IMG/VR virus record: IMGVR_UViG_3300032397_000033 | Coordinates: 1 to 42,521 of that record | Length of the DNA stretch: 42,521 nt | Origin: a virus | Strand: one strand, 5' to 3' | In this document: positions 1 through 40,738 of the stretch, piece after piece | Layout of the letters: each line of letters starts with the position of its first letter | Position numbering within the stretch: the first letter of the stretch is position 1 | Position numbers and translations under genes: made by a program | The notes under the pieces: generated by a model | Seen by the model: only the letters and a program-made list of their open reading frames with translations | The model's database searches: none | Told to the model about the DNA's origin: nothing

Positions 1-125
1 ATTCGCTAAGGTTCCTAAGTTTACCCTCGCTGCTGCTGCATTGCTTAATCCTGCAAGATTGTTGTCCCTCCGAAGATAGTTTACACTGTCTGCGAATCTC
101 CAGTACGTTCCATTCGTGAAGGTCC
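1..125. repeat. 125-bp direct repeat of the window's right end (circular join)
   Basis: Bases 1-125 are identical to 42397-42521, and also match 42247-42371. An exact overlap at both ends of a contig usually marks a circular assembly or terminal redundancy. Here the overlap coincides with a tandem coding repeat, so the assembler probably stopped inside the repeat and copies may have been collapsed. Frame continuity across the join supports real adjacency of the two ends. Confidence 0.9.
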
Positions 126-486
126 GGTATGCTATATCTGCAGTATCACCGATCAATAGGTACGTTCCGGTATGATTGTGATTAGATGCTGCCTTTGCTG
201 CAAGTAAAGCTGCTTGACCGTTTACCGAATCCGGAGGATCACCCTTCCACTTGCCACTTACGACAGAATCAAAATATGCTTTGTTGAAATGAATTGAAGA
301 TGATCCTATGCTCGATCCATGATTTGTGTTTGGTAGAATGTCACCCAAGACTATCACTGTGTCTCTTAGGTGAATGTATCTAACACCGTTTTTGCTATAC
401 GTTACAATCGTATCATGCGCTGCGTTTCTTTGAGCATAGGCCATACCAGGTATCAACAAACAAAGTAATAGTAAAATCTTCTTCAT
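1..486 (-). CDS. Secreted tail-fibre-like protein, N-terminal part (continues across the contig join)
   Basis: This is the 5' 162 codons of a gene whose 3' part is at 41443-42521; both halves are in the same frame across the duplicated contig end, giving about 479 aa. ATG at 484-486 shares a base with the upstream stop (TAATG), which fixes the start. Residues 1-18 form a Sec signal peptide (MKKILLLLCLLIPGMAYA) followed by Gln. An Asn-His-Asn-His segment lies near residue 100, and the first 50-aa repeat containing NLAGLSNAAAARVNLGT follows. That motif is typical of tail-fibre and collar repeats in phages. I infer a receptor-binding or fibre component. A cleavable signal on a fibre protein is unusual. 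Confidence 0.75.
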   Translation of the reverse strand, partial: MKKILLLLCLLIPGMAYAQRNAAHDTIVTYSKNGVRYIHLRDTVIVLGDILPNTNHGSSIGSSSIHFNKAYFDSVVSGKWKGDPPDSVNGQAALLAAKAASNHNHTGTYLLIGDTADIAYRTFTNGTYWRFADSVNYLRRDNNLAGLSNAAAARVNLGTLAN

Positions 487-878
487 TATTGCTCCTTAAT
501 GGCCATGTAAGTAAGGTTTCCTGCGACTGGAGAATCCAAGTCAAAGCCGTCATTGTCAATATTTGATACCTGGCCGAGTACGTCGTATACTACTCCATCA
601 ACATCAACCACTTTTGCAAGCGTTACTATCGCACCTGTTAAAGCACTTGAGAAATTTACAGACTGACTTCCTGCGATAACGGCAACGGTTTTACATCTAT
701 GAATGTCAACACTTGAGTCAGCTACGAGATAATCTAATTCAGACCATTTTTTTACTCCATCACCAACCTTAACTTTATTAGTCGTTGTGTTGTATCCGAT
801 TTCACCGTCGTACAATACCGGATCTGCTGCTGCCCATTCTGCTGATGTTCCACGTCTAACTTGAATGGTTATTCTCAT
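486..878 (-). CDS. Mtd-N-like tail fibre / tail-tip protein
   Basis: A 130-aa protein. Residues 1-50 match the N-terminal module of phage tail fibres and the major tropism determinant family: RRGTSAEW near the start, then DPVLYDGEIGYNTTTNKVKV and GDG...W.ELDY. The module normally trimerizes and attaches the fibre. The remaining 80 residues are beta-rich and unrecognised. The start overlaps the upstream stop (TAATG at 876-880), and the stop overlaps the next start the same way, so the fibre genes are translationally coupled. It is much shorter than Mtd proteins (about 380 aa) and has no variable C-type-lectin domain, so it is probably an adaptor or short fibre. Confidence 0.75.
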   Translation of the reverse strand: MRITIQVRRGTSAEWAAADPVLYDGEIGYNTTTNKVKVGDGVKKWSELDYLVADSSVDIHRCKTVAVIAGSQSVNFSSALTGAIVTLAKVVDVDGVVYDVLGQVSNIDNDGFDLDSPVAGNLTYMAIKEQ

Positions 879-1279
879 TATGGTGCTCCCATATCAAAAG
901 TTATCATGGCGTTATCAAAATCTTCTACTTCACCTGCATCAAATGATAAATTATAAGAATGCGTATGATCTATTGGAGAATAAACACCTGAATGAGTATG
1001 GCCTGTCAAAGCATAACCACTATGAGTATGTGAACTTTGCGCAAAACCCGTGTGGCCTGCAGATGCATAAGATAAATTCGAGAGCAACGCGTGATTAGAA
1101 GTACCCCCATCTCCACCGCCATTGACCGCTACCGGAAGATCTCCGATTGTTCTTTCAATGTGTACGATCTCCGTGCCCAATCCATCGAATATCTCCTTCA
1201 GTCTGGAAATAAGTTCTTCGTGACTCAAATTATCGGTGATTAGCGATGCCAGCTTCTGAGTATTTATCATCTGTATCAT
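878..1279 (-). CDS. Tail fibre protein with repeated His-X-His motifs
   Basis: A 133-aa protein. Residues 1-50 are helical and probably coiled-coil. A glycine-rich hinge (GGGDGG) follows, then three HTH tripeptides (about residues 84-86, 94-96 and 105-107) within repeats of the form S/G-HTHSGxY. Repeated HxH motifs in trimeric phage fibres, such as the T4 long tail fibre tip, bind a line of metal ions; metal binding here is inferred. ATG at 1279 overlaps the stop of the 962-aa gene (ATGA). It lies between the nozzle-like gene and the Mtd-N-like protein, consistent with a fibre or attachment role. Confidence 0.65.
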   Translation of the reverse strand: MIQMINTQKLASLITDNLSHEELISRLKEIFDGLGTEIVHIERTIGDLPVAVNGGGDGGTSNHALLSNLSYASAGHTGFAQSSHTHSGYALTGHTHSGVYSPIDHTHSYNLSFDAGEVEDFDNAMITFDMGAP

Positions 1280-4164
1280 GGTTCGCTCAATATATCTCCT
1301 GATATTGGATTAAGCGTACACATCACAGCCAGCTTCTCAATCAATACGTTATAATCACTTGTCGATACAATGGTAGAAGCAGAGATTTTCAATCGGAACG
1401 ACTTCCCACGTGCATCATCACAAGGTTCAAAAATACCGTTTCTTTTCGTAGATGAAAATACAAAAGAATCACAAGCAGCAGCAGATCCGGCTACAAAAAC
1501 ATCTACCGTTATATCGACATCAGAAATATAATCTATCGATATCTTATCGACCTGTAGATCCATAAAATTACCTTCCGGTCCTACCGCGTCACTTGCATAG
1601 ATTTCATTAGTCTCATACTCCATGTTGAAATTTACAAGGTTGTGATAAGGATGAGATCTACCGATACTGAAGATCGCACTCTGTGTGAGAAAGTCTACCG
1701 TTCCGTTTATTTGACGGGAATAGGCAATCGGAACATCTGCAAAATCCTGAATCGACCATAGGGCAGTATCAAGATCAAAGATGTACTCCAACGAAGCTAA
1801 CGACACACGAAGTTGTCTCTCGAAGTCGTCTAAAACCGAGAATGAGGATTCCTTCACCGCATTTGCAATAGCTTTCCAATCCTCCAGCCACAATAGATTG
1901 AGTACCTCTTCACCTCTCATTGAATATCGAAGGATTGCACTGTAATCGTTACAGTAAAGATAATCCTCAAACACTTCCAACGATTTCACGCTACAAATTC
2001 CATTACCTTTAGAGATTATCTTTCTGTCATAACCACCGGAAGCATTTCGGTAGAGTACGATGATAGTGTTACTTTTGATTGCGACAATCTTATCATCCAG
2101 GTTAATGATCGCCTGCAGCTCATCACCATCGGAGTATTCAAGGTCAATTAAACATTCCGCTTTCAAAGGGAAGATATCATATTGAGTATTGCCATCACCA
2201 TGAACAGCAGAGATCATGATGGTATTTTTTAGATTCTGCGATGTGTAGACATTCACAGCATAAGCGATATCGCCCATCAGTGATACATGCGCCGGTCGGA
2301 TATAACCGACATCTGTTGTTGCACGGTCGATATTAGTTGATAGTTCAGGACCTGCTCCTACATTCCAATCAGCTTCTGTGATTTCCTTCTCGATGTAGAT
2401 CGTTCCGGTAACATCATCTTTTGTCCAGACATCTTCACCTGCTAATTCTATCAACAGAACGTGATTATACAATACATCATTGACACTCATATAAAAGTTG
2501 ATGTAACTTGCAGACTTCGGAATGACAGCCCGATCAAGCGTAAGAAGTATCTTTGGATTGCTTGGAGTCGTACTCCACGTGATACTGCTTGAAGCAAGAA
2601 CTGAAGATTCATTACCGTCATCATCTGAGAATGTGATCTTTCCGTAGTATGTACCAGGATTAAAATCAGAACCGTATTCGTTCCTGTCCATCGTAAAATC
2701 ATTGATAGGAAGAACCATCTTTGCAGATTCGCATACGATCTCATCCGTCTCATTTAGTGGAGACGTCCATCCCCATGTCTTTTCAGCAAGCATTGATTTT
2801 ATCAGTGAATCTGTGGAATCGCTACCAGTAGCAATGCGAATACCATCACTCACAGCGTAAAAGTGAGGATCAATATCATCTGTTAAATTTCCTTCACCGG
2901 CGTATTCCGGCATGTAAAACTTATAGAAATAAATCTTGTCATTGTCTGGAGGTAATCCTTCCGTTGGAAGACCTAAAGTTTTAATGTAGTAGGCATCATC
3001 AGGATAGTAATGGTGAGTCGTATCATAACCACATTCAGATATTACAAAGAAACGATCGACATCCGTAGAATCTTTGAAGTATGCGATATAACCTACAAAA
3101 GAGGAATCGTTAAATAACTCGCCGCTTGGATCTATGGTCTTAAAATCAAATGCAATACCATCGTCAATGTATATCTTGTCTGAATCCGGCATTGTGTAAT
3201 AACGTTTGAATAAGACGGCATCGATATATGCTGTATTATTGCTTCCGGCTAAATTTATTACTGATATGGCTACACCGAATTGATCACTATCGGTATCGTC
3301 CATCACTAATCCACCCCAATCATCCGAACTATCTCCATAGATTTTTTCTTCATCCGGAGTAAGAAGCCAATATATGTCTATTTTATCATCACCGAAAACA
3401 GCACCATCTTTTACAGCTCTTATGCTATTATCACCCATGCCTTGTATCGAAGCGTAACGAATGACTTTAACTTCCAATCCTACCAACGTACAACCTATAG
3501 GATGCGTATGATTCCATGTGACATTTTTAACCATCAGATACTTTGATACATCAAGATGTGTAAGCGCTACAGAAGCATAACTACCATCGTCTGCGGCAGC
3601 ATTACCAGGATTAGACCAGTCTATGGTCCCAACTGTGGCATCGTTCGTAAATGAAACGCCCGGGCAGAATCCATCCTCTACATCGAGAACCGTTTGTCTA
3701 AGGTGTGTAAATATGAAGAAATCGGTAAGGTCCTTCCATGAGTCTATCCATGCAGCACCAGACCAATATGGACGTACAAAAACGCAAAGACGATCTGTGG
3801 TAGGTGACGCGGTATAAAAGGCCGTCTTAGTGTATTTACCGACCAAGAATGTCAATTCCTTACCACCGTGCATCTTTGTATGGAAATTATAGTGACGGAT
3901 CCAGGTGATATCGCTTATCTTCCAGAGAGTCGGATTGATGTAGTTCGGTCCTTCTGCATTGGTGGATTGAGGGAGATTACCGTATTCAGCTTCACCATCA
4001 ATCCACTTTAGACCATAACCAGGTGCATTTTGGAGGGCGTTTTTCTTACGGTTCAGGACGAAGTTCTTTAAGCTCTTCGCAGATCCAACCGGAGGGGACG
4101 CGATCGATGTGATCAATCCCTTAAATTTATCGATCGGGATTGTGATTTTCTGCGGTTCAGACAA
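1276..4164 (-). CDS. Large tail nozzle / stabilization-like protein
   Basis: A 962-aa protein opening with IPIDKFKGL and then GSAKSLKNFVLNRKKNAL, the N-terminal style of podovirus tail tubular/stabilization proteins (P22 gp10-like, and the 'stabilization protein' of Bacteroidetes phages). The rest is beta-rich with a few repeated Tyr/Asp loops and no signal peptide. The only plausible start is TTG at 4162-4164, directly after the stop of the 327-aa gene, with a GAGGAAG ribosome site upstream. It follows the connector-like genes and precedes the fibre genes, which fits the distal tail. Assignment rests on order, size and the N-terminal motif; it could instead be another large tail protein. Confidence 0.55.
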   Translation of the reverse strand: MSEPQKITIPIDKFKGLITSIASPPVGSAKSLKNFVLNRKKNALQNAPGYGLKWIDGEAEYGNLPQSTNAEGPNYINPTLWKISDITWIRHYNFHTKMHGGKELTFLVGKYTKTAFYTASPTTDRLCVFVRPYWSGAAWIDSWKDLTDFFIFTHLRQTVLDVEDGFCPGVSFTNDATVGTIDWSNPGNAAADDGSYASVALTHLDVSKYLMVKNVTWNHTHPIGCTLVGLEVKVIRYASIQGMGDNSIRAVKDGAVFGDDKIDIYWLLTPDEEKIYGDSSDDWGGLVMDDTDSDQFGVAISVINLAGSNNTAYIDAVLFKRYYTMPDSDKIYIDDGIAFDFKTIDPSGELFNDSSFVGYIAYFKDSTDVDRFFVISECGYDTTHHYYPDDAYYIKTLGLPTEGLPPDNDKIYFYKFYMPEYAGEGNLTDDIDPHFYAVSDGIRIATGSDSTDSLIKSMLAEKTWGWTSPLNETDEIVCESAKMVLPINDFTMDRNEYGSDFNPGTYYGKITFSDDDGNESSVLASSSITWSTTPSNPKILLTLDRAVIPKSASYINFYMSVNDVLYNHVLLIELAGEDVWTKDDVTGTIYIEKEITEADWNVGAGPELSTNIDRATTDVGYIRPAHVSLMGDIAYAVNVYTSQNLKNTIMISAVHGDGNTQYDIFPLKAECLIDLEYSDGDELQAIINLDDKIVAIKSNTIIVLYRNASGGYDRKIISKGNGICSVKSLEVFEDYLYCNDYSAILRYSMRGEEVLNLLWLEDWKAIANAVKESSFSVLDDFERQLRVSLASLEYIFDLDTALWSIQDFADVPIAYSRQINGTVDFLTQSAIFSIGRSHPYHNLVNFNMEYETNEIYASDAVGPEGNFMDLQVDKISIDYISDVDITVDVFVAGSAAACDSFVFSSTKRNGIFEPCDDARGKSFRLKISASTIVSTSDYNVLIEKLAVMCTLNPISGDILSEP

Positions 4165-5148
4165 TTACTTGTTCTTCCTCTCAATCGCCTTCTGTTTGTT
4201 CGCTTCAGCAGCTTCATACATCTTTGCATGAGCAGTTAATCGAGCAGTGAGATCCTCTTTCGGTTTTTCACCCAAATGTTGCAGGAATTTCGCAGTAACT
4301 TCATCATTGATGATCTGATTATACTCCGGTGGTATCATGATGGTTGAATCTTCGGTATCGTCAGTGTAAATAGCGGGTTTACCACGATATTCCATCGTTG
4401 GAGTACCAATAGGATCGGCACTACTACCAACGTGAAACACAATCGTATCACCACGTTGGATGTAACCGACACGAGTTTGTTTTGACGGTATTCTTGGAAG
4501 GTCCCGGAATTTGTCGATGTCCACGAATTGATCAAATACCTTTTGATTTCCCCTGTCTACCTCGTCATAGATAGCAAAAATCTCTTTAACGTAGAGTCCG
4601 GATATGTCTGCCGTTAGAGCCGAAAGACTTTTAATGATGATTACACTTATGCAAGGTGGGGCGGGTAAACTCCAAGTTTCGATTTCTCCTGCAATTATTT
4701 CAGCAGTTACATCCGATCCGGAATCAATAACCCTTGCAACACAACTATATTTAATCTTCGCAGCACCAGGTGGATAATCGTCATCACCTATGTTGACACT
4801 TCTACAGACTGTTATGAAAAGTAGCGATCCGGCTTGGAACGTGCCGGACGATCTGGCTATATTAAGAGGGGCCGTTAAGTCTGTGTGTGAATATGATACG
4901 ATGTCATGCAGCCGTTCTCCCTCATTAATTTGATGGGTATCAGCTTGAAGTTCAATGTCCGATGCAATCGTAAGCAAAGATGTCATGTTATAGAATGGAT
5001 CAGCTAACCCATCAAGCATAGCGTAGATCTTCATCAGTGAATCGTTGATGTATTGCTTCCTTATAACGGCATCGATGTCGGCATCCGCTTTGCCGATTGC
5101 CTGTAAACATCCATAGTCCAATTCACGGAAGGTTAGATAATTTTTCAT
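4165..5148 (-). CDS. Virion protein, probable head-tail connector/tail component
   Basis: A 327-aa protein with no signal peptide or membrane segment. The N-terminal third is helical, the middle is beta-rich, and the C-terminus is a basic helical tail ending in a Lys/Arg/Asn cluster. ATG at 5148 has a good ribosome site (AAGGAG, 6 bases upstream). The stop abuts the TTG start of the 962-aa protein. I recognise no family. Its position in the connector-tail segment argues for a structural role. Confidence 0.5.
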   Translation of the reverse strand: MKNYLTFRELDYGCLQAIGKADADIDAVIRKQYINDSLMKIYAMLDGLADPFYNMTSLLTIASDIELQADTHQINEGERLHDIVSYSHTDLTAPLNIARSSGTFQAGSLLFITVCRSVNIGDDDYPPGAAKIKYSCVARVIDSGSDVTAEIIAGEIETWSLPAPPCISVIIIKSLSALTADISGLYVKEIFAIYDEVDRGNQKVFDQFVDIDKFRDLPRIPSKQTRVGYIQRGDTIVFHVGSSADPIGTPTMEYRGKPAIYTDDTEDSTIMIPPEYNQIINDEVTAKFLQHLGEKPKEDLTARLTAHAKMYEAAEANKQKAIERKNK

Positions 5149-5158
5149 TTATTACTCC

Positions 5159-6034
5159 TTATAGTGATAATTTTTTATCGTTGATCGCATTAGCGACCAT
5201 TATGTTCACAATATCATCGTCCCAAAACTTTGCCAGTTCGATGTCGGTAGTAGATCCACTGTACGATACCAAAAATTCATATACATCGAGTATCTCATCT
5301 GATGTCGGCAGACCGTCACCCGCAAGGATCACCTTCTTTGTACTCACAAACCTCTGGATGTACCCATTGTAAATCTTCGATGTAGCACCAGCCGGTTTCA
5401 ATCTCCCTCTCATCATGAATTTACGGTTGACATCATCAGAGGTGAACACGCTACTCATCGTAGCAGTTAATTCCTTTGTCGAATAAACAAACGCACCAGG
5501 AGCAGTCGAGAGATACTTTCCGGTATCTGCCACTCCTACACTCACCGTGATATCATCATGATTTTTCACGTAACGGATAGATACCGCAGTAGCTATTGCA
5601 CTCGGAAGAACATAGATCCGGTCTAAGTATTCATAGTAATAAGGGTTCGTTAGGGTAGGCAGGATCGTACCGTGTTTACCAGCGACTACATCTATCACTT
5701 GAGATGCCGGTACGCGGTGGAACTTGTACGATCCGTCAGTGAAATATACTTCGATGACGTGATTTAAGTCCGCAGGTTTTACAATGTATCCACCGGTAAT
5801 GGGTATATTATTATCCGATGTACGCAAGTATTCCGGTACAAGTTCCCCGAAACCACCGGCAAGCGTCTTGAAACATTGCTCAACGATGTTACGGATAGCA
5901 TTGTTCTGATGAAGGCTCAATCTTGCAGATGAGAACCTTCTATTTGTGTCGTCCGATGAATCGGCATAAGTTCTTGCATCACCTAAACGTCTTGCAGCTC
6001 TTAAAATGTTATCGTTGAATCTTTCTGTTGACAT
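5159..6034 (-). CDS. Virion protein in the connector region, unknown fold
   Basis: A 291-aa protein. Its first 50 residues are Arg/Ser/Asn-rich and helical; the rest alternates beta strands with aromatic loops (YYYEYLDRIYVLP, and ADTGKYLS further on). It has no transmembrane segment or signal peptide. It follows the 207-aa adaptor-like gene by one base and precedes the 327-aa gene by a short gap with a ribosome site. In this class such genes usually encode head completion or tail tube components. No catalytic motif is visible, so I assign only a structural role, by context. Confidence 0.5.
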   Translation of the reverse strand: MSTERFNDNILRAARRLGDARTYADSSDDTNRRFSSARLSLHQNNAIRNIVEQCFKTLAGGFGELVPEYLRTSDNNIPITGGYIVKPADLNHVIEVYFTDGSYKFHRVPASQVIDVVAGKHGTILPTLTNPYYYEYLDRIYVLPSAIATAVSIRYVKNHDDITVSVGVADTGKYLSTAPGAFVYSTKELTATMSSVFTSDDVNRKFMMRGRLKPAGATSKIYNGYIQRFVSTKKVILAGDGLPTSDEILDVYEFLVSYSGSTTDIELAKFWDDDIVNIMVANAINDKKLSL

Positions 6035-6035
6035 A

Positions 6036-6659
6036 TTAGTACCCTATGTTGTCTGAAGAATGTTTACGTCTTATCACACCTTTTGCAGTCTCATTCATCA
6101 TTGAATTCATTCTTGTTGATGCTAATGAATTAAATTTATCAAATGCTTCCGGTACAACTTCCGATACTACTCCCCACTCCAAAGCTTCATCCCATCCATC
6201 CTCGAGCTCGGGTTCCGTGTTAAGATCAATCTTTTTTGACGAGAGACCATAATAGAATAGATCGAGCTCATCACCAGTCACGGCAGGTGTAGGATGGAAG
6301 TATGCGTACTTATCCCATACGAACATTGCTACTGGATTACCGGAGAGGTATGGATTATTAGATATGAACTCGACCCAAGAGGATGATGTCACAATGATCT
6401 GCAATTCCTTCACAGACCAATTGATAGGCAATATGATCGCCGATATCTTGTGAAACCTACCAGACAAGGAATATGTATTTGTGCCAGCTTCGAGTATCAT
6501 CCTGGAATGTCTTTTAGCAGCGCAGTAATCCTGACATAGTTTGAATTCCACTTTATTAAGCAGTTCAAGTATACGGTCCGCATCTATGCCAGTTACTTTC
6601 AGCGTGGACAATCTCCACTCTATTGCGCTTACAAGGTTCTTCGTTCTATTGAATGACAT
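6036..6659 (-). CDS. Head-tail adaptor-like protein
   Basis: A 207-aa protein with helices flanking a beta core. Features typical of podovirus adaptor proteins are visible: an N-terminal helical segment (about 1-50), a central section with WDKYAYFHPTPAV, then the pattern LDLFYYG...ELEDGWDEALEWGVVSEV, close to the 'YYY.P..L......W..AL..Y...E' signature of connector adaptors. These proteins form the ring under the portal. The start ATG directly follows the stop of the 156-aa gene. Assignment is by motif pattern and gene order, with no catalytic residue to confirm it. Confidence 0.55.
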   Translation of the reverse strand: MSFNRTKNLVSAIEWRLSTLKVTGIDADRILELLNKVEFKLCQDYCAAKRHSRMILEAGTNTYSLSGRFHKISAIILPINWSVKELQIIVTSSSWVEFISNNPYLSGNPVAMFVWDKYAYFHPTPAVTGDELDLFYYGLSSKKIDLNTEPELEDGWDEALEWGVVSEVVPEAFDKFNSLASTRMNSMMNETAKGVIRRKHSSDNIGY

Positions 6660-7130
6660 TTAAGATAGTCCTAACTTCAATTTTTCTCTCACGATATCCT
6701 GTTCAAGATCAAACTTGATCCTTTGAGAATCCTCTTCAGCAAGTCTTTTTGTCGCAAGGTACACCAGGAGCGCTTTAGCCGGCTGCGGTACGTCCAGCTT
6801 ACTGTTTACTGCGACCGGATTGATGGAATTTCTTGTAAACTCGAATCCTATCCGACTTGCTTCAGTGTAGACAGCAACCTTGATGAAAACATAAAGGAAG
6901 TTTCCAGATTGAGAAAATGCAAATTCCGGAGCAGAAGTAGAAGAGAGATAACCGAAAAGTGTAGAGGATGGTACTGGTGATGTTGACGGTGCGCTCATCA
7001 TATCATCGTCCCACATTGTTACTTGCTTTACTTTGTGGATCAGGACAGACTTCAGATCGAATGCGAAGATCTTACCCTGTGTACCAGCAGCGATCTCAGT
7101 ACCATCGGATATTAAATTTCCAAATGCCAT
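6660..7130 (-). CDS. Small virion protein (possible head closure/decoration)
   Basis: A 156-aa protein. The first 110 residues are beta-rich with a Ser/Thr/Pro loop. The last 45 form a charged amphipathic helix (AKALLVYLATKRLAEEDSQR and onward) of the kind that packs against capsid or connector rings. It has no signal peptide, unlike its larger upstream neighbour. Start ATG at 7130 follows an AAGGTGAT ribosome site. I recognise no family. Placement between tailspike and adaptor genes suggests a small structural protein. Confidence 0.45.
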   Translation of the reverse strand: MAFGNLISDGTEIAAGTQGKIFAFDLKSVLIHKVKQVTMWDDDMMSAPSTSPVPSSTLFGYLSSTSAPEFAFSQSGNFLYVFIKVAVYTEASRIGFEFTRNSINPVAVNSKLDVPQPAKALLVYLATKRLAEEDSQRIKFDLEQDIVREKLKLGLS

Positions 7131-7152
7131 ATATCACCTTTTTATTTAATTA

Positions 7153-10100
7153 TTACCTTACCGGATAACCTACGCCACTGAGATACGTACCACCATTTTT
7201 AGTGAGATTATTCAGCGCATCGGTATCGTAGGCATTGTTTAGCCACTTCCAGTTTCCTCTTGATTGTCCTGCGGGAGGAGTACCGAGTATTCCCAAAGTC
7301 CAAATGTTTTTAACATCATCCTGAGTCATACCGTAACCGACTACGATCTGATATTGACCAATTTCACCTTTCCAGAATCCGGATGAAGTTAGGGAGTTCC
7401 GACCAACAAACAACTGACCAAGATTTTCTATTTTACCGTAATCGCATAGATTGAATCCTGCACCTGTTACGGATACCGTATCTTGATAGAATTTTGTGTT
7501 GGTGGCTATACCATGATTCATATTGTAAACTAACGTCAGTAAACGCCAGGTAGAATCATTTGCGTTAGCCGTAACACCATTCCATGTTTGATAGTAATCA
7601 TCAGTACCATCGGCTAATGTCCATGTGAAAATATTAGAAGTAGAACCGGCGTGGAGTCTAAAACCGGAAGTTGCGGGAGTCTTACTGCTATCTATGGTAG
7701 ATGCTATTACCTGCGGAGTCGAAATCGTCGTTGTTGAATGTCTAACCCAAGCATTGATTGTAAAAGGTCTGCGTTGATATAGACGAACACTATCAAGATA
7801 AATTGTTTCTACTCCACTGCCATTCGCTTTAACCCAAATTTTTGCACCGATGGTGGTAGATTTTCCTCTGAATATCATCTGCTTGTGATACCAGGTATTT
7901 ACTGTCATACCACCGAGTTGTTTAACGCTATCACCTACTCCCATTCTTGGATAATTAGAGCCGGATGTATGCCTAATCCTAAATTCAAATACGTACCAGT
8001 GATCCGTCAATATTTCACCAAAATTAACAGCCATGAGTTTGACAGTATCCGTTGAACTTGACGCATCAAACGACATACGCAAAGATTTTGAACTGCCTCC
8101 GAATGCGGTATCACCTTGTGCAATGGAAGATCCAACACCTGTGACGGCCCAGTTACCTGTACCTAATTCAAAATTCCTATCAGTGATAGAATTGATAAGC
8201 TCAGTGCTATCGAATGATAGATTAGAGGGCGGGGATGCACTTGTTAAATAATCAGGAGTTGACCCGCTTAATTTTATCGACCAGGCCGTAACAGCCGGAG
8301 GAGTCACTCCACCAGAAACACTATTACTGATCCTGCTCCAGTTTGTGCCGTCGCTTGCTTTGACAGCAAACCAATAATCCGATGCACCATTAAGGCCGGA
8401 TCCCATATAGAGTTGAATTGTTCCAGAAGTATCAGGTACTTTCACTTCTGAAAATGCAGTAGCCGTAAACCAATCAGCACTATCAACACTGTCGGTTAAT
8501 TGATAACGAATGCTGTAGGATGATGCTATACCTGTAATAGAATCGTCACCAACCGCAAACCATCTTAGATACGCTTTTGTTCTATCGGTGCTCATCGAGT
8601 CTAATGACAGTACGATTGGAGCAGGTCTTATGTTATCTACCGCTTCGGTAGTTTGTTCAAACGGGCCGATATCCGCAGATGCTCCTAATGGTATCGACAC
8701 TCCAATTATATCTGCGGTAATACTCATCCAGGAGGGACAAGTGTATCCGTTATTTATGGCTTGAGATCCTGTGAGAGGTTTGTAGTTGTTAATGATTGAC
8801 AATCTGTTTGGTGATATTGATGGATTATCGGATCTATTATTGGCAATTATATCACCTACGACTTCTGAGTTGAATGTTGCCACAGAAATTGGAGTACAGT
8901 TATCAGGTGATTCTCTGTAAACAACGGTATTTAATGTACTATCAGAAAAAATAATATTATTCCGGAAAGTACCTGCACCGATATTCGGTGTTATGACAAG
9001 TCCGGCAAATTTGCTTGACACAAGAACAGGAAAAGGATTTTTACTGCAATTCTGTAGTATGTTGTTTAAAACAAAACAATGAGTAACCGTGGGGCCGTTC
9101 TGCATTGATATTCCTGCGTCATCGGTATTGCCTATATAATTATTCGCAACTACTACACTATCGCAATATGCGCCTCCGTCTATGTAGGCAATCAATACTC
9201 CTTTGGCTTCTGCGTTGTTACCACCCACCCAATTCCATCCAGGATTTTTCTCATACACCGTATCAATAATGTTACCTACGAATATAGTTTTCTTACCTGC
9301 AATCTGAGATTGACAGGCCATGTTGTGTATGTAGTTATTCCTGATAATATTCAGTACGGCTGAAGTATCACGATAGGAATGTATGTCAAACGCTCTCCCA
9401 TAGTCTGTACCTCCTGTAAATTCATTGTGATCTATTAGCCAATATCTTGTTTGATAAGGATTAGCCGTCGCTGCCATGTTAAACGCTGAGTGATCGCATG
9501 ACTTAATTCTGTTGTAGGCGAATCGACCACTATCACCATCTACTATTTGAACTCCATCGAATATAGCGTAACCAACATCCGCAGTTTTAGGAGCTTCGTA
9601 TGTATGGTGAATCGTATCATTATAATCTAACAAGTTTGCTAATATTATAAATGAATCACATCCTACTCCCCTAATACCGGTAACGAAGTCTTTGATCGTA
9701 CACGAATCGACGAAAAATTTCCTACCGCCACTCAGTTTTAATGATGTTCCACCTTCAAGTTGTAAATTTCTGATTCTTATGTTACTTCTGGAAACACTAT
9801 TTATGGCGTATGAATAAACTGGTAATGTACCTGGAGATCTTCCACCTGGAGACTCTATTCCAGAATATATATCTGGAGGCTGGAGTGTTGTAGAGCCAGT
9901 CCATATATAAAGCAAACCGCCTGAAGTCCAATACCAACGCCATCTTGAATTGACTCCGGCTAATGTTGCAGCTTGGCCGTATTCTTTGCCGTCGAGCCAT
10001 ATCCGTAATGGATTTGCAGGACAAGAGAAAAACCAAACAGTGTCAGTTGGTGCGTTTCTATTAGTCCAACTACTTGCGGTTCCAGATCCAGTTATCGTAT

Positions 10101-11790
10101 CTTTTACAGATATTATCGGTTTTGCGCCTGAGCCGTAAGATGTAATCATTATATTGCTTGAAGGAATCGTTAAAGTCTCTTCCCACTTATCGCCACGCTT
10201 TAAGTGTATCGTATCATTGTTGTATGTTCTACCGTTAAACGCAAAAGCAAGTGTTTTCCAGGGATTGGAATAGTGTCCCCAATTCCCTCCATTAGAATCT
10301 TTACCTGTGCTATACGAAACATAAAATCCGGAAGTATCCCCTCCAACTGGACCTGGAGGTTGTTGGTATGGATAGTAGTTATCCGACATACCGTATACTT
10401 TTCCAAATATGCAATCGAACCTGTAAACTGTAGTCCATGGGGCTTCATCTTGAAGTCCGACTTTATTACTATCCCTCCAAAATATATCACTTGGGAATGT
10501 TACGGTAGGCAAACCTACTGCACTTGTTACATAAACGTCTATATGACCATATATTGAAGGTTTATTGCTGAAAGTATACGTCTTATTGGCAGCGATTGTA
10601 TCTGTGAATGATATGATGGGACTTTTTACAACTTGCCAGTCTATATCTGTATATCCTATTATGGAACGGTTTACATCACTATTCAATAATCTCGTATCCA
10701 TATCTCTTAAATCATCAAGTGTTAATGATTTGTCGAGAACCTTTGTCGTTGTGATCTTATTGGGGGCAATGAGAGGATTAGGGTATGAACTACCTTCAAG
10801 ATCTCCTCCGGCTGCTCCACCTGTGGCAGCTTTCTTCGCTGAATCTGCTAATGTAGCGAAAGGTGCTTTGAAGTTATCTGCTACATCACCTGTGGAAATT
10901 CCTTTTTGAGGTATCTTACTCGAATCTATTGAGTTGTTTCTGATATTGCTTGGAGATATGCTTAACGGTTTGAAGTTGTTGGAATCCGCTTTCGCTATTG
11001 TCCAAGATACTCCATTAGACATAATCAGGTTATAATCGGATCCTACACCTGGCGTTAGAAAAGTGACTGGACTTGTACCGTTTCCTATTATTATTGAATT
11101 GCTTGTTAAAGATGAATTGCCTGTACCTCCTCGACTCACTGAAAATATTCCGGAAGATATATCGGATGTAGTGAGTGTCCCCATATTTATGGTAACTGAA
11201 GGCCCAAGAGGATTGATGATTGATAACTTTCCGTCTGAATTCCCAATGCTTGTTATTCCTCCGGATCCTCCTCCGGCTGTGTCTATAGAAGTTACTTTTA
11301 TCGTATCACCAATGGTTGTGATTGAAGTACCTCCGTAGCCGATCATATATATCGTATCTTGAAGGCCGTTTATCATTTTAACGAGTACACCATCAGGAAC
11401 CGTAAAGCTCTTTGCGTAGTTTGCTGTATCTGATTTTAAAGCGTAAAGAGCTGTATCAGGTGTTCCACCAGTATTCTCGTCCGCACCAGGAGTCCAAACG
11501 CTACCGTTCCATTTTAATACCTGGCCTGACGTAGGAGTCGTGCCGAGTCTGAATCTCCATATATGAAATACTGATCCCACTTGTTGGCAAAAGAACAGAG
11601 TATCTCCATTCATCCAGGATTCATTGTCACCAGGAAGAATTGTTCTGGCGTAATTACCGTATTTAATAATTTTATTTATTTGAGCAGAATCAGTAATTAT
11701 CCTTAAAAAAGGAGGAGGTTTTAACGGATTGTACTGTGCAAATGTAGATGCACAGAATAATATGGAAAGTAGTACAATGAGCTTTTTCAT
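7153..11790 (-). CDS. Secreted-type tailspike: beta-helix, FnIII, and LamG with a nested carbohydrate-binding domain
   Basis: A 1545-aa protein. Residues 1-18 are a Sec signal peptide (ASTFA|Q). About 80-350 is fibre-like, with GGTG linkers and a 'SGQVLKWNGSVWTPG' module. About 485-1045 is a right-handed beta-helix of pectate-lyase type, starting SYSTGKDSNGG..PWKTL, with many N-N-x-I turns and ending DIGPFE. About 1055-1155 is fibronectin type III. From about 1175 a LamG/concanavalin fold begins (DYLTSASPPSNLSFDS), is interrupted by a CBM4/9-like unit (about 1205-1335, opening NFELGTGNW), and resumes at RPFTINAWVR to the end. Beta-helix spikes commonly cleave capsule or LPS; catalytic residues are not identifiable here. 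The start overlaps the previous stop (ATGA). Confidence 0.75.
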   Translation of the reverse strand: MKKLIVLLSILFCASTFAQYNPLKPPPFLRIITDSAQINKIIKYGNYARTILPGDNESWMNGDTLFFCQQVGSVFHIWRFRLGTTPTSGQVLKWNGSVWTPGADENTGGTPDTALYALKSDTANYAKSFTVPDGVLVKMINGLQDTIYMIGYGGTSITTIGDTIKVTSIDTAGGGSGGITSIGNSDGKLSIINPLGPSVTINMGTLTTSDISSGIFSVSRGGTGNSSLTSNSIIIGNGTSPVTFLTPGVGSDYNLIMSNGVSWTIAKADSNNFKPLSISPSNIRNNSIDSSKIPQKGISTGDVADNFKAPFATLADSAKKAATGGAAGGDLEGSSYPNPLIAPNKITTTKVLDKSLTLDDLRDMDTRLLNSDVNRSIIGYTDIDWQVVKSPIISFTDTIAANKTYTFSNKPSIYGHIDVYVTSAVGLPTVTFPSDIFWRDSNKVGLQDEAPWTTVYRFDCIFGKVYGMSDNYYPYQQPPGPVGGDTSGFYVSYSTGKDSNGGNWGHYSNPWKTLAFAFNGRTYNNDTIHLKRGDKWEETLTIPSSNIMITSYGSGAKPIISVKDTITGSGTASSWTNRNAPTDTVWFFSCPANPLRIWLDGKEYGQAATLAGVNSRWRWYWTSGGLLYIWTGSTTLQPPDIYSGIESPGGRSPGTLPVYSYAINSVSRSNIRIRNLQLEGGTSLKLSGGRKFFVDSCTIKDFVTGIRGVGCDSFIILANLLDYNDTIHHTYEAPKTADVGYAIFDGVQIVDGDSGRFAYNRIKSCDHSAFNMAATANPYQTRYWLIDHNEFTGGTDYGRAFDIHSYRDTSAVLNIIRNNYIHNMACQSQIAGKKTIFVGNIIDTVYEKNPGWNWVGGNNAEAKGVLIAYIDGGAYCDSVVVANNYIGNTDDAGISMQNGPTVTHCFVLNNILQNCSKNPFPVLVSSKFAGLVITPNIGAGTFRNNIIFSDSTLNTVVYRESPDNCTPISVATFNSEVVGDIIANNRSDNPSISPNRLSIINNYKPLTGSQAINNGYTCPSWMSITADIIGVSIPLGASADIGPFEQTTEAVDNIRPAPIVLSLDSMSTDRTKAYLRWFAVGDDSITGIASSYSIRYQLTDSVDSADWFTATAFSEVKVPDTSGTIQLYMGSGLNGASDYWFAVKASDGTNWSRISNSVSGGVTPPAVTAWSIKLSGSTPDYLTSASPPSNLSFDSTELINSITDRNFELGTGNWAVTGVGSSIAQGDTAFGGSSKSLRMSFDASSSTDTVKLMAVNFGEILTDHWYVFEFRIRHTSGSNYPRMGVGDSVKQLGGMTVNTWYHKQMIFRGKSTTIGAKIWVKANGSGVETIYLDSVRLYQRRPFTINAWVRHSTTTISTPQVIASTIDSSKTPATSGFRLHAGSTSNIFTWTLADGTDDYYQTWNGVTANANDSTWRLLTLVYNMNHGIATNTKFYQDTVSVTGAGFNLCDYGKIENLGQLFVGRNSLTSSGFWKGEIGQYQIVVGYGMTQDDVKNIWTLGILGTPPAGQSRGNWKWLNNAYDTDALNNLTKNGGTYLSGVGYPVR

Positions 11791-12242
11791 GTTGACTCCA
11801 TTGCGATATATGAGAACGGTATTCCATCTTCAGAAGCGAATGCAGTGAATCCGTAGATTGTCCGTGTGTCAGCAGCACTAAGGTCTATCATATCCGGATC
11901 GATGTACGACACACCAAGAGAAAGTTGAATCTCCGGTATCTTCGTAAGAGGAGAAGGAATACTACCTAACTCGAATGTAATCGGGGTACCGGCGATCGAC
12001 GCAGTACCTGATCCGGCTCTAATGCCGTATGCAGGACCTACAGCCGGCGACAAAGGATCTGTGTAGTTATTCAATAAATAATCCGACTTGCCTGCATCAT
12101 TGTTAAGATTACAGATGTCCTGCTGAATTAGTCCAATGAATTCTAATTTCTCAGCCTCAGATTTTTCACTGAATCCTTCGTAAGCATTCAGGATCGAAAT
12201 AATATCCGATACATCGATCACTGAAATGGGCGATAGTATCAT
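11787..12242 (-). CDS. Small structural protein upstream of the tailspike
   Basis: A 151-aa protein with a helical N-terminal half containing EKSEAEKLEFIGLIQQDI and a beta-rich C-terminal half with a Gly/Ser/Ala linker. No signal peptide. ATG at 12242 has an AAGGAG ribosome site 6 bases away, and the stop overlaps the tailspike start by ATGA, so the two are translationally coupled. That coupling suggests it assembles with, or helps fold, the tailspike. I recognise no family. Confidence 0.45.
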   Translation of the reverse strand: MILSPISVIDVSDIISILNAYEGFSEKSEAEKLEFIGLIQQDICNLNNDAGKSDYLLNNYTDPLSPAVGPAYGIRAGSGTASIAGTPITFELGSIPSPLTKIPEIQLSLGVSYIDPDMIDLSAADTRTIYGFTAFASEDGIPFSYIAMEST

Positions 12243-12251
12243 ACCAGCTCC

Positions 12252-12599
12252 TTATCTTAAATAATAATAGCGTACACGTCTTAGGCAAGTCGTAGATGCT
12301 GATTTTGTACGGATGAAATTCACACCCTGTATCGTCTTATAGATGAATAACTCATCCGACTTGATCGAGATGTACTGTCCGGCTGACGTGTCATTCATGA
12401 ATGCAAGGTACAGATCTACAGAACCATCGTTGATCACCTCCAGACACTTCCTCAAGATCTGCGGCCCGATGTACACGCTGTCCCATGCTGTCGTTGATGT
12501 ATCCGCATCCTGACGCATTGCAGCAACAGGAATATCCTGACCGCAGCATAAGACTGAAACGACCAGGATAAGTAGTAACGTAAATATGATATTTTTCAT
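12252..12599 (-). CDS. Small exported protein with Q-rule signal peptide
   Basis: A 115-aa protein whose first 20 residues (MKNIIFTLLLILVVSVLCCG) form a strong Sec signal peptide followed by Gln-Asp. Two adjacent Cys at the end of the hydrophobic core could also be read as a lipobox-like site, so lipoprotein processing is an alternative. The mature 95 residues look like one small beta sandwich (VYIGPQILRKCLEVINDGSV and further strands) with two to three Cys. ATG at 12599 has AAGGAGAT about 8 bases upstream. Function unknown; it sits between capsid-adjacent and tailspike genes. Confidence 0.55.
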   Translation of the reverse strand: MKNIIFTLLLILVVSVLCCGQDIPVAAMRQDADTSTTAWDSVYIGPQILRKCLEVINDGSVDLYLAFMNDTSAGQYISIKSDELFIYKTIQGVNFIRTKSASTTCLRRVRYYYLR

Positions 12600-12627
12600 G
12601 ATTAAACTTATCTCCTTTTACGAACTA

Positions 12628-13026
12628 TTATTTCTTTTTCTCTGCATCCAGCATCTTGCCGATGAACCGAACGACTTCCGTTTTTTGTTTATCCGTGAGA
12701 GAGAGAACCATCTTGGACAATTCAGTCTCTTGGAACTTTTTACGGAATTTGTAAAGTTTCATATCCGGCTTGTCGACGGCTATCTCAAATGAAGAACTGT
12801 TGTTCTTCAAAAGAGCATTTCCGAAATCTAACGGTACGACTTCATCCGGATCGAATATATACTGCTTACCTTTATAGGTAAGGATGTGCGGAAGCTCAAT
12901 GAGTGGAAGGACGCGAAGGTTGAGTTCCGTAAGAGCCTTCTTCTTTTCCGTTGTAGGTGGAGCATTTCCATCCGGTGGTTTATCCGGTGGGGTTGTTTTG
13001 TTCTTATCTTCGTCTGACTGACCCAT
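12628..13026 (-). CDS. Pro-rich capsid-adjacent protein
   Basis: A 132-aa protein. Residues 1-30 are a hydrophilic Pro/Lys/Thr-rich arm; 35-75 hold short strands (LPHILTYKGKQYIFDPDEVV); the last 55 form a basic helix ending in Lys-Lys-Lys. ATG at 13026 has AAGGAG 7 bases upstream. It follows the 84-aa gene after a stem-loop. Small proteins in this position are often head-completion or minor virion proteins; that is inference from order only. Confidence 0.45.
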   Translation of the reverse strand: MGQSDEDKNKTTPPDKPPDGNAPPTTEKKKALTELNLRVLPLIELPHILTYKGKQYIFDPDEVVPLDFGNALLKNNSSSFEIAVDKPDMKLYKFRKKFQETELSKMVLSLTDKQKTEVVRFIGKMLDAEKKK

Positions 13027-13076
13027 GATGAAACTCCTTAAAGTTATATTGATAAATAGTTAATTGACTGTAATGA

Positions 13077-13102
13077 AAGGTGGACCTGTTAAGATCCACC
13101 TT
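13077..13102 (-). terminator. Stem-loop after the capsid gene cluster, possible weak terminator
   Basis: AAGGTGGA at 13077-13084 pairs perfectly with TCCACCTT at 13095-13102 around a 10-base loop. On the minus strand it is followed by an imperfect T-run (TTTCATT), so it may be a leaky terminator or an mRNA-stabilising 3' end that raises capsid message over downstream genes. Confidence 0.45.
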
Positions 13103-13123
13103 CCGATTTTATCATCCTGCTTT

Positions 13124-13378
13124 TTATGGACTTGCCTTTGTCCAAGTTGCAGCAGCTGTCTTGATGTACCAATCTCCATTTGTGGTATCGACACAAATAG
13201 ATCCGTTTGGTGCATTGTTAAACAGTGCCGCAGGATCGGCTGTGTACTGTATGAGGTGCATGCCATTTCCGGATACGCCACCATTAAAAACAGCTACGTT
13301 TGCCGTTGCCGGATAACCGAACTGAGTGACAGGATCAATCACAGGATCGGTAGGCGTTAGAATTTGATTGTTACCCAC
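13124..13378 (-). CDS. Small fibre/decoration-like protein
   Basis: An 84-aa protein. The C-terminal half carries NAPNGSICVDTTNGDWYIKT then ATWTK, matching the common fibre module 'GsiyvdTtnG..YvKt...tW' seen in head fibres and tail fibres. It starts with GTG at 13376-13378 behind AAAGGAG; no ATG is available nearby. Its place just downstream of the capsid gene suggests a head fibre or decoration protein. Confidence 0.55.
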   Translation of the reverse strand: MGNNQILTPTDPVIDPVTQFGYPATANVAVFNGGVSGNGMHLIQYTADPAALFNNAPNGSICVDTTNGDWYIKTAAATWTKASP

Positions 13379-13410
13379 TGGGTTTTACTCCTTTCTTTCT
13401 TTTTTCTTTG

Positions 13411-13875
13411 TTATGGTAGTTTGAACCAGCGTTCGAATCTGATCCAAAGTTTTGAATTACCGTTACCTGATGAAGCTGCGATTAACCGAAGCGTAATATT
13501 ATCTGCGTTTGTAAATTGCGCTCTCGTCAAAGTAACGAAACTCAATTCATCATCTTTAACAGAATCGATCAGAGTATAGGATTGTACCGGATTCCCTGAA
13601 AAGCTTGTTGTAAAATAGACTTTTACATCATTAGAGTCTCCAGGCGCAATAGCTTCCCAAGATATTCTGATCGAGTCAGGAATACAGTTTATGATTCCTG
13701 TCATTGAGCCGTTCGTATAGGCAATCGGTTGTGCTGTGCTGGTGTATGTCGTTCCATTTACGATGGTTTTGTTGGCCCATAAATTTGTACCTACGACAAC
13801 AACTTGACCGAAGCACAAACTGTTAATAAGCACAAGAAAAACCATCATAATCGATATAAGGGCTAATCTTTTCAT
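13411..13875 (-). CDS. Exported beta-sandwich protein with Q-rule signal peptide
   Basis: A 154-aa protein. Residues 1-23 form a Sec signal peptide (MKRLALISIMMVFLVLINSL then CFG) followed by Gln. The mature part is beta-rich, of jelly-roll or Ig-like character, with Ser/Thr/Asn-rich strands and no recognised motif. The ribosome site GGAGGTG precedes ATG at 13875. It sits directly downstream of the major capsid gene, where decoration or head-fibre proteins usually lie, so an export signal here is unexpected. Confidence 0.6.
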   Translation of the reverse strand: MKRLALISIMMVFLVLINSLCFGQVVVVGTNLWANKTIVNGTTYTSTAQPIAYTNGSMTGIINCIPDSIRISWEAIAPGDSNDVKVYFTTSFSGNPVQSYTLIDSVKDDELSFVTLTRAQFTNADNITLRLIAASSGNGNSKLWIRFERWFKLP

Positions 13876-13887
13876 CTTTCACCTCCA

Positions 13888-15207
13888 CTATGAGTAACTG
13901 AGTGCATGAGGTGAATAGGTGACACCGAGAATGCTGGAAGTATTCTCGTAGAAATCACCTGCCGTTAGGCCCATCAATCCGAGCTTGTCGTAAATCTCGT
14001 TACGCACGACACTCTTGATGAAATCAAGGCCGTAGCCCTTCGTGTTTTCGTAATCTTCGACATTAGACTTTACTTCTACTTCCTCACCGGTAGCAACGGT
14101 CAGAGCCGAAGCACCTAAGAGGATGCAGCAAGCATTATCGCCTGTGTCGAGATCCGTGATCGTGTTACCGATGCAATGACCTTGCGCCCTTTGAGCCGCC
14201 GTAGGTCGTGGACCATACTCGACTGTGCCAGCCGTGACTAACGCATTATCGGCATGTGTGTAGGCGCACCACAGCTTGAGGTCTGTGATTATGATAGCGC
14301 CATCGATCACCGCTACACCAAGATGTGCAAGCGGGTGATCTTCCATCTTCGCGACTGCAAGAGACTGTGCAAATGCTTTATACTCAGTATCTTGACGAAA
14401 TTGGTTGAACGCTGCATCCTTCATAAATATTGGATATAGCGGATAACCCGACTTGCTTACTATGGGCTGTATCTTGCAGCGTGGAGCTTCCTGGACGAGA
14501 TTACGGATGAATGCGACACTCATCGTTTGTCCAGCGGCTCCGGTCAAAGCATCAATCGCAGCTTCACACGCAGCTTCATACGCTGCAGTACCAGGTCTGC
14601 TGGCCCACGTTACACGACCACTTCCGGCTACGATCATATTCGGGTGACTTACCGAAGTCATTGCCCGACCACCAAATGCAGCACCGGAAATCAGATCACG
14701 TGAGTAGCCATAGTGCATTGCAGCGAGTAGATTGGATGGGAAATAATCCTGGAACCACATCCGAAGCATAGGCTCCGCGGAATTGATGAGCCAGGACTTC
14801 CACTGTTTAACCTGCTGTGCCTGCATACCTGTGGGAGGAGACACGGCATGTCGTGTCCTATTGATGTATACCTCACGGAAGGCATACTTCACATCTTCCT
14901 CTTTGCCCATTAACGGCATATCACCAAAGGCAGCAGGTAGACCGGTTAAACGTGAGACATGCGGAATGAGCATGTCTGTTCGACCTTCTTGTATGAATCC
15001 GTTCACCGTCTCAATGGGTGCGCCGACAAAGCGAGTAAGACCACCAGGCCCTAACGCTTTTACCTCTTCCTCACGGCCCATCTGTGTGAGGAAGTTCGCA
15101 CCGATCAGTTCGGCAAACTTACTACCGTAATACATCATCCTCCGCATTTTTTCGGAGAGTAACGTACGAAGTTCAGGGTAGAGTGATAGATCAATTATTG
15201 AACGCAT
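13888..15207 (-). CDS. Major capsid protein, N4-gp56-like family
   Basis: A 439-aa protein with the layout of N4-gp56/DUF4043-type capsid proteins: an N-terminal segment with Met/Arg-rich helices, then LTGLPAAFGDMPLMGKEEDV, VYINRTRHAV, and a C-terminal region with CCILLGASALTVATGEE followed by VEDYENTKGYGLDF. These match the 'L.G.EE.l', 'v.q.RHAV' and 'LGa.AltvA.G....E...DY....G' landmarks of that family. It follows the scaffold-like gene. ATG at 15207 has AAAGGA upstream. Length is close to the usual 380-420 aa. Confidence 0.85.
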   Translation of the reverse strand: MRSIIDLSLYPELRTLLSEKMRRMMYYGSKFAELIGANFLTQMGREEEVKALGPGGLTRFVGAPIETVNGFIQEGRTDMLIPHVSRLTGLPAAFGDMPLMGKEEDVKYAFREVYINRTRHAVSPPTGMQAQQVKQWKSWLINSAEPMLRMWFQDYFPSNLLAAMHYGYSRDLISGAAFGGRAMTSVSHPNMIVAGSGRVTWASRPGTAAYEAACEAAIDALTGAAGQTMSVAFIRNLVQEAPRCKIQPIVSKSGYPLYPIFMKDAAFNQFRQDTEYKAFAQSLAVAKMEDHPLAHLGVAVIDGAIIITDLKLWCAYTHADNALVTAGTVEYGPRPTAAQRAQGHCIGNTITDLDTGDNACCILLGASALTVATGEEVEVKSNVEDYENTKGYGLDFIKSVVRNEIYDKLGLMGLTAGDFYENTSSILGVTYSPHALSYS

Positions 15208-16678: not shown

Positions 16679-17029
16679 TTATTCCTTCTCACGTTCCTCT
16701 TCAATGCTTTCATTCAATTCGGTCTCACTCATGTCGGCAGCCTTCTTCTTAGTGTCACGGAATCCGGCCTGTAGGATGTCAAGCTCGAAATCGACTGAAT
16801 TCGGAGTACCATCCTTGTGATCGGTGACACTATACCTTTTCAGCTTGACCTCAGCTATCATCACAGCCTTATCACCGACCTTCAATCCCTTCGGTACATC
16901 CATGCCGGTATTCCAAGATTGAATACGTGGATACTCTATCGATGATTGTTCGTTAGATGGTGTTGCAATTTCTCCCTTGTTTTCTCTCTTCTTACCGACT
17001 TTTTGAAGTTCTACATTCGCAATTTTCAT
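16679..17029 (-). CDS. Small protein between portal and scaffold genes
   Basis: A 116-aa protein. Residues 45-90 contain GLKVGDKAVMIAEVKLK and then SVDFELDILQAGF, a small beta-barrel-like segment seen in hypothetical proteins next to phage portals. The C-terminal 25 residues are an acidic helix (ESIEEEREKE). Its ATG overlaps the portal stop (ATGA). I assign no function. Confidence 0.55.
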   Translation of the reverse strand: MKIANVELQKVGKKRENKGEIATPSNEQSSIEYPRIQSWNTGMDVPKGLKVGDKAVMIAEVKLKRYSVTDHKDGTPNSVDFELDILQAGFRDTKKKAADMSETELNESIEEEREKE

Positions 17030-28912: not shown

Positions 28913-29020
28913 CTATGTGAGTTTTGGATTATCGTTCTCGTGGAGGATCGAAAGAACAAACAAAATAAATCCTACGGTTGCAATAACGAATCCTGTAAGT
29001 ATGCCGATGATTAATGTCAT
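28913..29020 (-). CDS. 35-aa single-span membrane protein
   Basis: ATG at 29020 overlaps the stop of the M15-like gene (TAATG). The product is almost all one transmembrane helix (LIIGILTGFVIATVGFILF) with a short charged tail (HENDNPKLT). Position after the putative peptidase and before other membrane genes suits a small holin, antiholin or pinholin-like protein, but nothing proves that. Confidence 0.5.
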   Translation of the reverse strand: MTLIIGILTGFVIATVGFILFVLSILHENDNPKLT

Positions 29021-29379
29021 TAGAATAATTGAATATGGATGTGTGCGTTATCCGTTAAAAGAGCTTCCGGATATATCTTGAGATCTACCTTCTCTCGAAG
29101 CATGATCACGGTCCAGAAGATGTGGCAAATGTGAATCGCCTTGTGCTGTTCCACATCCTTAATCCGGATGTCGAATGCTTCACCGGATCCGGATGGGCAA
29201 TTTCTGATGTAATGTTTGGAATCCGCCAAATGCTTGGAGATCATTTCGTGTCCGGAGGTTATATTCAATCCATCTTCGTCATTAGGGTAGATAATAGGCC
29301 ACAGTGCGTCAAGGATCGTCAGAGACCGTTTTAATACCGGATGCAATCTCGTTATATCAACTTCGGGCTTTTGTGTCAT
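29020..29379 (-). CDS. M15-like peptidase, candidate endolysin
   Basis: A 119-aa protein. It has ITSGHEMISKH, then SKHY, GSGEAFDIRI and a C-terminal HIHIQLF. These match the zinc-ligand layout of VanY/M15 D-Ala-D-Ala carboxypeptidases and phage lysins (S.H..G.A.D ... H.H), with presumed ligands His56, Asp70 and His113 or His115. The spacing between the first His and the Asp is 14 residues rather than the usual 7, from an inserted RNCPSGS loop. No signal peptide, so a holin would be needed. Neighbouring small membrane genes fit a lysis cassette. Confidence 0.55.
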   Translation of the reverse strand: MTQKPEVDITRLHPVLKRSLTILDALWPIIYPNDEDGLNITSGHEMISKHLADSKHYIRNCPSGSGEAFDIRIKDVEQHKAIHICHIFWTVIMLREKVDLKIYPEALLTDNAHIHIQLF

Positions 29380-40401: not shown

Positions 40402-40728
40402 CTACTCAATTTTGAGTTTTTTCTTTACAACTGATACGTCTTTTTTAATATCTTTCTGATCGTAACGGATATCCATTAACGTGCTATCTATAGTCTTAAA
40501 GAAGGCTCTTAATTCCTTCATATCCAGTTCTCTTTTTGCTTCGTTTGTATCTACTGTTTTTTTCAGTTCTGGTATAGTAGACTTTTCAAGTGTATCAACC
40601 TTTTCCGTGTACTTGCCGGTTTGTTGACCGACCGTGTACATAATAACAACGAATGTCAATAACGAACCAATAAGCGGAATAATTACAGTTAATAATTTTC
40701 CATTCGCGAAATTACTGATCTTAACCAT
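40402..40728 (-). CDS. Membrane-anchored coiled-coil protein
   Basis: 108 aa from ATG at 40728, 6 bases after AAGGAAG; a GTG at 40734 would add two residues. Residues 12-32 are a transmembrane helix (LLTVIIPLIGSLLTFVVIMY), then a long heptad coiled coil to the end (EKVDTLEKSTIPELKKTVDT). An inner-membrane spanin or a small ejection-pore protein are both possible. It is encoded among virion genes and not in the lysis cassette. Confidence 0.5.
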   Translation of the reverse strand: MVKISNFANGKLLTVIIPLIGSLLTFVVIMYTVGQQTGKYTEKVDTLEKSTIPELKKTVDTNEAKRELDMKELRAFFKTIDSTLMDIRYDQKDIKKDVSVVKKKLKIE

Positions 40729-40738
40729 GATCACTTCC

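Follow-up and report, generated by a model that had tools for sequence, protein, structure and literature searches.

Signal peptides followed by glutamine on fibre-, tailspike- and capsid-adjacent-type proteins of a phage lineage, and a possible periplasmic step in virion assembly

Tailed phages are taught to assemble entirely in the cytoplasm. Five genes in the virus record analysed here (42,521 bp, taken at its full length and called the window) begin with cleavable Sec signal peptides that would expose Gln at +1, as had been proposed in a preliminary description of this DNA, and both the sequences and the shuffled controls described below agree with that proposal. All five lie within the virion operon, and the earlier placement of these genes as fibre, spike and capsid-adjacent also holds, where "virion" is a designation taken from operon position and domain types. 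Our reading, which we hold with about even confidence, has two parts: the five proteins would be genuine substrates of Sec and signal peptidase I, expressed from the late operon of the phage, and the receptor-binding, fibre and decoration proteins among such products would be exported, stay soluble in the periplasm and attach to finished virions at lysis.

The five genes, all on the minus strand, start at the positions given by the preliminary description, and their N-termini are MKKILLLLCLLIPGMAYA↓QRN (start at 486), MKKLIVLLSILFCASTFA↓QYN (11790), MKNIIFTLLLILVVSVLCCG↓QDI (12599), MKRLALISIMMVFLVLINSLCFG↓QVV (13875) and MKWLISVLLFPIMLQA↓QFV (41446). A positive n-region, a hydrophobic core, small residues at −3 and −1, and Gln at +1 are present in 5/5. 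The cleavage motifs described earlier as CG↓Q, FG↓Q and QA↓Q stand, while the first two had been swapped (YA↓Q belongs to the gene at 486 and FA↓Q to that at 11790), and the span of 1-13875 assigned to the set leaves out the gene at 41446. Signal peptides were called by a rule-based predictor, and as a null model residues 1-44 of 32 window genes were shuffled 2000 times. The shuffled genomes contained a mean of 0.046 genes with a signal peptide followed by Gln (hereafter SP-Gln genes) and never more than 2, which rules out chance as the origin of the five N-termini. The same rule applied to the real window returned 6 SP-Gln genes, namely these five and a single-TM protein at 40728 (40402-40734), which we discounted as a sixth signal peptide and counted as a membrane protein; given the hydrophobic N-termini, the chance of finding Gln at an allowed +1 position in 6/6 is ~1.4e-7. 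Wrongly assigned start codons were also ruled out, since a Shine-Dalgarno-like site precedes each of the five starts and two of the starts overlap the stop codon of the preceding gene. The proteins are not lipoproteins, because +1 is Gln rather than the lipobox Cys in 5/5, and a Pfam scan detected no T9SS C-terminal secretion domain in window proteins.

The gene that begins at 486 is interrupted by the start of the contig (5' part, 1-486, minus strand) and resumes at 42521-41443 (3' part, minus strand), giving 479 aa as joined. Its signal peptide of 18 aa (433-486; AYA↓Q; Shine-Dalgarno sequence AAGGAG) is followed by a mature protein with 0 Cys as joined, and the 3' part, which matches tail fibre phrog_2282, carries 150-bp tandem repeats and GGTG-type shaft repeats. 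The 125 bp common to both ends of the window sit within this tandem repeat, inside the fibre gene (42181-42521 and 1-125). A circular or circularly permuted genome is probable, and the repeat number has probably been collapsed in the contig; with the copy number uncertain, the length of the fibre is uncertain too. Directly upstream, and joined by a stop/start overlap (TAATG), is a gene for a 130-aa protein with an Mtd_N virion-adaptor domain and no signal peptide (486-878, minus strand; PF18454, E 4.8e-16), and a 133-aa short fibre-like protein with HTH-rich repeats, likewise free of a signal peptide, is encoded at 878-1279 (minus strand). It is tempting to suppose that the Mtd_N adaptor is made in the cytoplasm and the fibre in the periplasm.

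The largest of the five genes encodes a tailspike-like protein of 1545 aa (7153-11790, minus strand) with a signal peptide of 18 aa (11737-11790; TFA↓Q), in which shaft repeats, a beta-helix-like middle and a LamG-like end can be recognised by eye; it has no relatives in Pfam, PHROG, PDB sequences or viral contigs. The stop codon of the adjacent gene (11787-12242), whose small product lacks a signal peptide and looks receptor-binding-like by eye, overlaps the start of the 1545-aa gene (ATGA). A 115-aa protein to which no fold was assigned is encoded at 12252-12599 (minus strand; signal peptide of 20 aa, 12540-12599, CCG↓Q), and a 235-aa protein with 6 Cys in its mature part at 40739-41446 (minus strand; signal peptide of 16 aa, 41399-41446, LQA↓Q). 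The fifth gene (13411-13875, minus strand; 154 aa; signal peptide of 23 aa, 13807-13875, CFG↓Q) directly follows the major capsid gene, a position at which the three phages of the closest clade (L002, L035 and L036) also have an SP-Gln gene. The counterpart in L002 keeps the hydrophobicity and FG↓Q although 7 of the 23 codons carry non-synonymous changes. The AlphaFold model of the 154-aa protein is all-beta and of low confidence (pLDDT 60), for which reason its matches to phage jelly-roll and fibre folds were not relied on.

The window also encodes small and large terminase subunits, a P22-type portal (17026-18966, minus strand; phrog_156, E 1.7e-36) and a major capsid protein (13888-15207, minus strand; phrog_334, E 1.2e-21), the last two having no signal peptide, together with a giant protein of 2807 aa; the phage is probably short-tailed. 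The giant protein (30260-38683), which contains LPD38 (PF18857) and a ParB-like stretch (phrog_1033), is possibly an ejected internal virion protein. A 119-aa protein at 29020-29379 shows an M15-peptidase-like pattern by eye, making it a candidate endolysin; Pfam and PHROG gave no match to it. A search for a close cultured relative of the window phage found none.

Relatives were collected with the terminase large subunit of the window (TerL; 18945-20480, minus strand; phrog_979) as query, a scan of viral contigs giving 24 and a wider scan 80. Across eight genomes, SP-Gln genes made up 21 of the 111 genes inside the virion module versus 0/106 outside it. L036 carries further SP-Gln genes besides the one after the capsid gene, among them one for a beta-helix tailspike-type protein (L036:10703-12457; PF13229), and proteins of the same type with signal peptides are encoded at L046:1912-4617, L047:4610-6607 and L038:3-1097 (PF12708). 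The SP-Gln genes of some relatives encode pectate-lyase-type tailspikes and fibre-shaft repeats. PHROG matches of the virion-module proteins without signal peptides, in three genomes, comprised portal, head and other structural families as well as fibre-family stretches, with no match to a tailspike family. The trait does not belong to all phages with this terminase, since SP-like genes numbered only 2/378 in Clostridia prophages with a related TerL. Nor does it belong to all phages of such hosts, or of Bacteroidota, since signal peptides were found in none of the structural proteins of crAss001 and Cellulophaga phage phi14:2, and according to the phi14:2 record most of the structural proteins of that phage have been seen by mass spectrometry. 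SP-Gln virion-module genes are a lineage trait; tblastn with three family members gave no match to a cultured phage.

In more distant relatives an SP-Gln family, which we call c2, adjoins the terminase gene and occupies the gap between terminase and portal where the contig shows both. The signal peptide is kept in 18/18 members of its alignment (A2), with a nearly invariant Gln at +1 and two invariant Cys, and a second SP-Gln family of these phages has conserved cysteine pairs. The c2 proteins combine a common N-terminal domain with one of two C-terminal modules unrelated to each other, an architecture to be expected if a receptor-binding protein is anchored. The predicted model (pLDDT 80) ends in a jelly-roll, and this C-terminal part is similar in fold to cement and fibre proteins of phages, among them virion proteins of Cellulophaga phages phi14:2, phi4:1 and phi17:2, with weak scores and E-values that are not significant for the PDB fold matches. 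One of these likenesses, the phi14:2 tail protein, has an Mtd_N-like start and no signal peptide. Homologs that lack the hydrophobic segment and keep the rest, which the preliminary description would have counted against export, thus appear only in part, at the level of a tip-fold likeness in a distant phage, and not within the lineage.

Cellular genomes give some indication of the hosts. TerL relatives occur in two Granulicella isolates, a Bryobacterales MAG, Ignavibacteria MAGs and many Clostridia, and the matches of TerL and c2 in Granulicella and Bryobacterales suggest an Acidobacteriota host for those viral contigs that we call the Acidobacteriota type. The prophage of the soil isolate Granulicella sp. 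S156 (L063) has a gene for an 814-aa fibre-like SP-Gln protein (L063:11938-14382) just after the terminase, while c2 was present in 1/396 Acidobacteriota genomes, in a MAG contig beside a terminase. A search for the host of the window with the capsid profile returned nothing in 296 genomes of the phylum of the Ignavibacteriaceae MAG. On the host contig of Granulicella sp. S156 (L203-L214), a blind rule placed Gln at +1 in 6/24 signal peptides, and more were seen by eye. The Q-rule may extend beyond Bacteroidota; the paper that described it does not mention Acidobacteria.

Cysteines tend to be paired in proteins whose folding takes place in an oxidising compartment. In loci of the Acidobacteriota type, all 43 distinct mature SP-Gln proteins contain Cys, and the number is even in 41/43, compared with 160/336 (48%) for the remaining genes in these loci. 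With each homology cluster represented by a single protein, the number of Cys is even in 18/18 SP-Gln proteins versus 110/222 others. This parity argues for disulfide folding in an oxidising compartment, the periplasm, and export looks real in the Acidobacteriota-type relatives. The signal is absent from the window's own clade, where the SP-Gln proteins are Cys-poor and it is the signal peptides that point to export. Among 46 mature SP-Gln proteins, 45 have no second membrane helix and none has a lipobox, so the mature proteins should be soluble in the periplasm.

We propose that SP-Gln proteins of the receptor-binding, fibre or decoration type cross the inner membrane via Sec, and that the signal peptide is then removed so that Gln, probably cyclised, becomes the new N-terminus, both cleavage and cyclisation being presumed for this host. 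The mature proteins would fold in what we take to be the periplasm, with disulfides in the Acidobacteriota-type relatives, and would remain soluble there until holin/endolysin lysis mixes the compartments, at which point they would attach to finished virions that lack fibres. Such virions would be built in two compartments, the head and tail stub in the cytoplasm and the receptor-binding and decoration proteins, passed through Sec, in the periplasm, with joining only at lysis; we give this a little under an even chance, and if true it would constitute a separate assembly route for tail fibres. Joining at lysis fits the operon position, the number of SP-Gln genes, the capsid-adjacent member, and the c2 N-terminal domain with its exchangeable C-terminal modules. 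The preliminary description had left the purpose of export open between surface adhesins, assembly after export or lysis, and some other role. Soluble storage in the periplasm is favoured here over surface adhesins because the proteins lack a lipobox, a further membrane helix and any surface-secretion domain that could be recognised, and incorporation into the virion stays a prediction. Several observations weigh against the proposal. The window's clade lacks the cysteine-parity signal, and the structural proteins of crAss001 and phi14:2 have no signal peptides. The small fibre- and adaptor-type proteins without signal peptides (486-878, 878-1279 and 11787-12242) imply that the virion may have receptor-binding proteins that are not exported. 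For periplasmic fibres to find virions in the brief burst would be costly, and we know of no precedent in a tailed phage.

The same signal peptides, solubility and disulfides in relatives would fit equally well if the exported proteins acted on the envelope of the infected cell, their receptor-binding domains binding receptors or glycans in the periplasm or outer membrane, which could block superinfection and keep progeny from re-adsorbing to debris, or trim surface glycan before release. T5 Llp is comparable to such a role, and the small fibre/adaptor-type proteins without signal peptides would leave the virion with candidates of its own. T4 Spackle is an example of a phage protein whose signal peptide takes it to the periplasm and is cleaved (PMC7650644). 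No homology to superinfection-exclusion proteins of the Spackle or Llp type was seen. Yet there are up to five different proteins with signal peptides per genome, encoded among the virion genes and absent elsewhere, and in four phages one of them directly follows the capsid gene; moreover, nothing that might hold them at the surface was found, be it a lipobox, a second membrane helix or a T9SS C-terminal domain of Pfam. We regard action on the envelope as less likely than joining at lysis, and as its main rival.

That the genes are morons, host-derived exported adhesins that the phage acquired and that have nothing to do with the virion, is improbable. Phages do carry exported morons, an example being the OmpA-domain SP-Gln protein of phi14:2 (L055:283-1278), which is encoded outside the virion module, but the genes considered here occupy the same position in many divergent phages, overlap virion genes by their start and stop codons, and specify tailspike and fibre folds. 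The single Acidobacteriota genome with c2, where it adjoins a terminase, also speaks against such an origin, and no host homologues of the same architecture were found outside prophages. Still less probable is that the N-terminal helices are predictor artefacts, or hydrophobic segments that the virion retains, for instance to penetrate a membrane. The prediction is rule-based only and some virion proteins do have membrane-active segments, but this would leave unaccounted for a cleavage-site pattern with Gln at +1 (~1e-7 by chance) and the even-cysteine fingerprint of oxidative folding in relatives, which are conserved across families. Intracellular removal of the signal-like segments by a prohead protease of the phage has been suggested for SP-like major capsid proteins of Porphyromonas gingivalis phages (PMC10367356), and the 154-aa gene does adjoin the capsid gene; this we consider the least probable of all, because proheads do not contain fibre- or tailspike-type proteins, and neither Gln at +1 nor the disulfide parity would be explained. 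Export followed by joining at lysis remains the reading that we prefer.

Exported, partly disulfide-bonded proteins of the fibre, tailspike and decoration type would mean either a periplasmic assembly step or a large exported class of receptor-binding proteins acting on the infected cell, and either outcome bears on host recognition by phages that infect abundant but little-studied bacteria, Acidobacteriota among them. The literature searched, most subscription papers lying outside its scope, yielded no report of tail fibres that are exported. Several known systems share features with the window. Substrates of the Bacteroidetes Q-rule are likewise cleaved by signal peptidase I before Gln (PMC5837995, PMC10653852), but the rule is known for cellular proteins, and relatives of the window phage occur in Acidobacteriota. 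The crAss001 proteins gp22 and gp23 and the pectate-lyase tail protein of phi14:2 have a similar beta-helix/jelly-roll receptor-binding architecture, encoded in a virion operon that also specifies a P22-like portal; unlike the window proteins they have no signal peptide, and the Mtd_N-like stretch at the start of the phi14:2 protein corresponds in the window to a separate protein without one. T4 Spackle (gp61.3) also reaches the periplasm with its signal peptide cleaved (PMC7650644), but is a small lysozyme inhibitor, the product of an early gene and one per phage, and is neither of fibre type nor encoded in the virion operon. Lys44 of phage fOg44 and other exported endolysins are similarly passed through Sec before lysis and act at lysis (PMC6116005), although they are enzymes of cell-wall breakdown and not receptor-binding proteins. 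The Porphyromonas gingivalis phages (Nixviridae), like the window, have five genes with phage-encoded signal peptides predicted to expose Gln, and their Q-rule genes, of unassigned function, were read as modifiers of the outer membrane (PMC10367356). In contrast to those, the SP-Gln genes of the window are of fibre, tailspike and capsid-adjacent type, lie in the virion operon and recur throughout a lineage whose members include relatives with the cysteine fingerprint.
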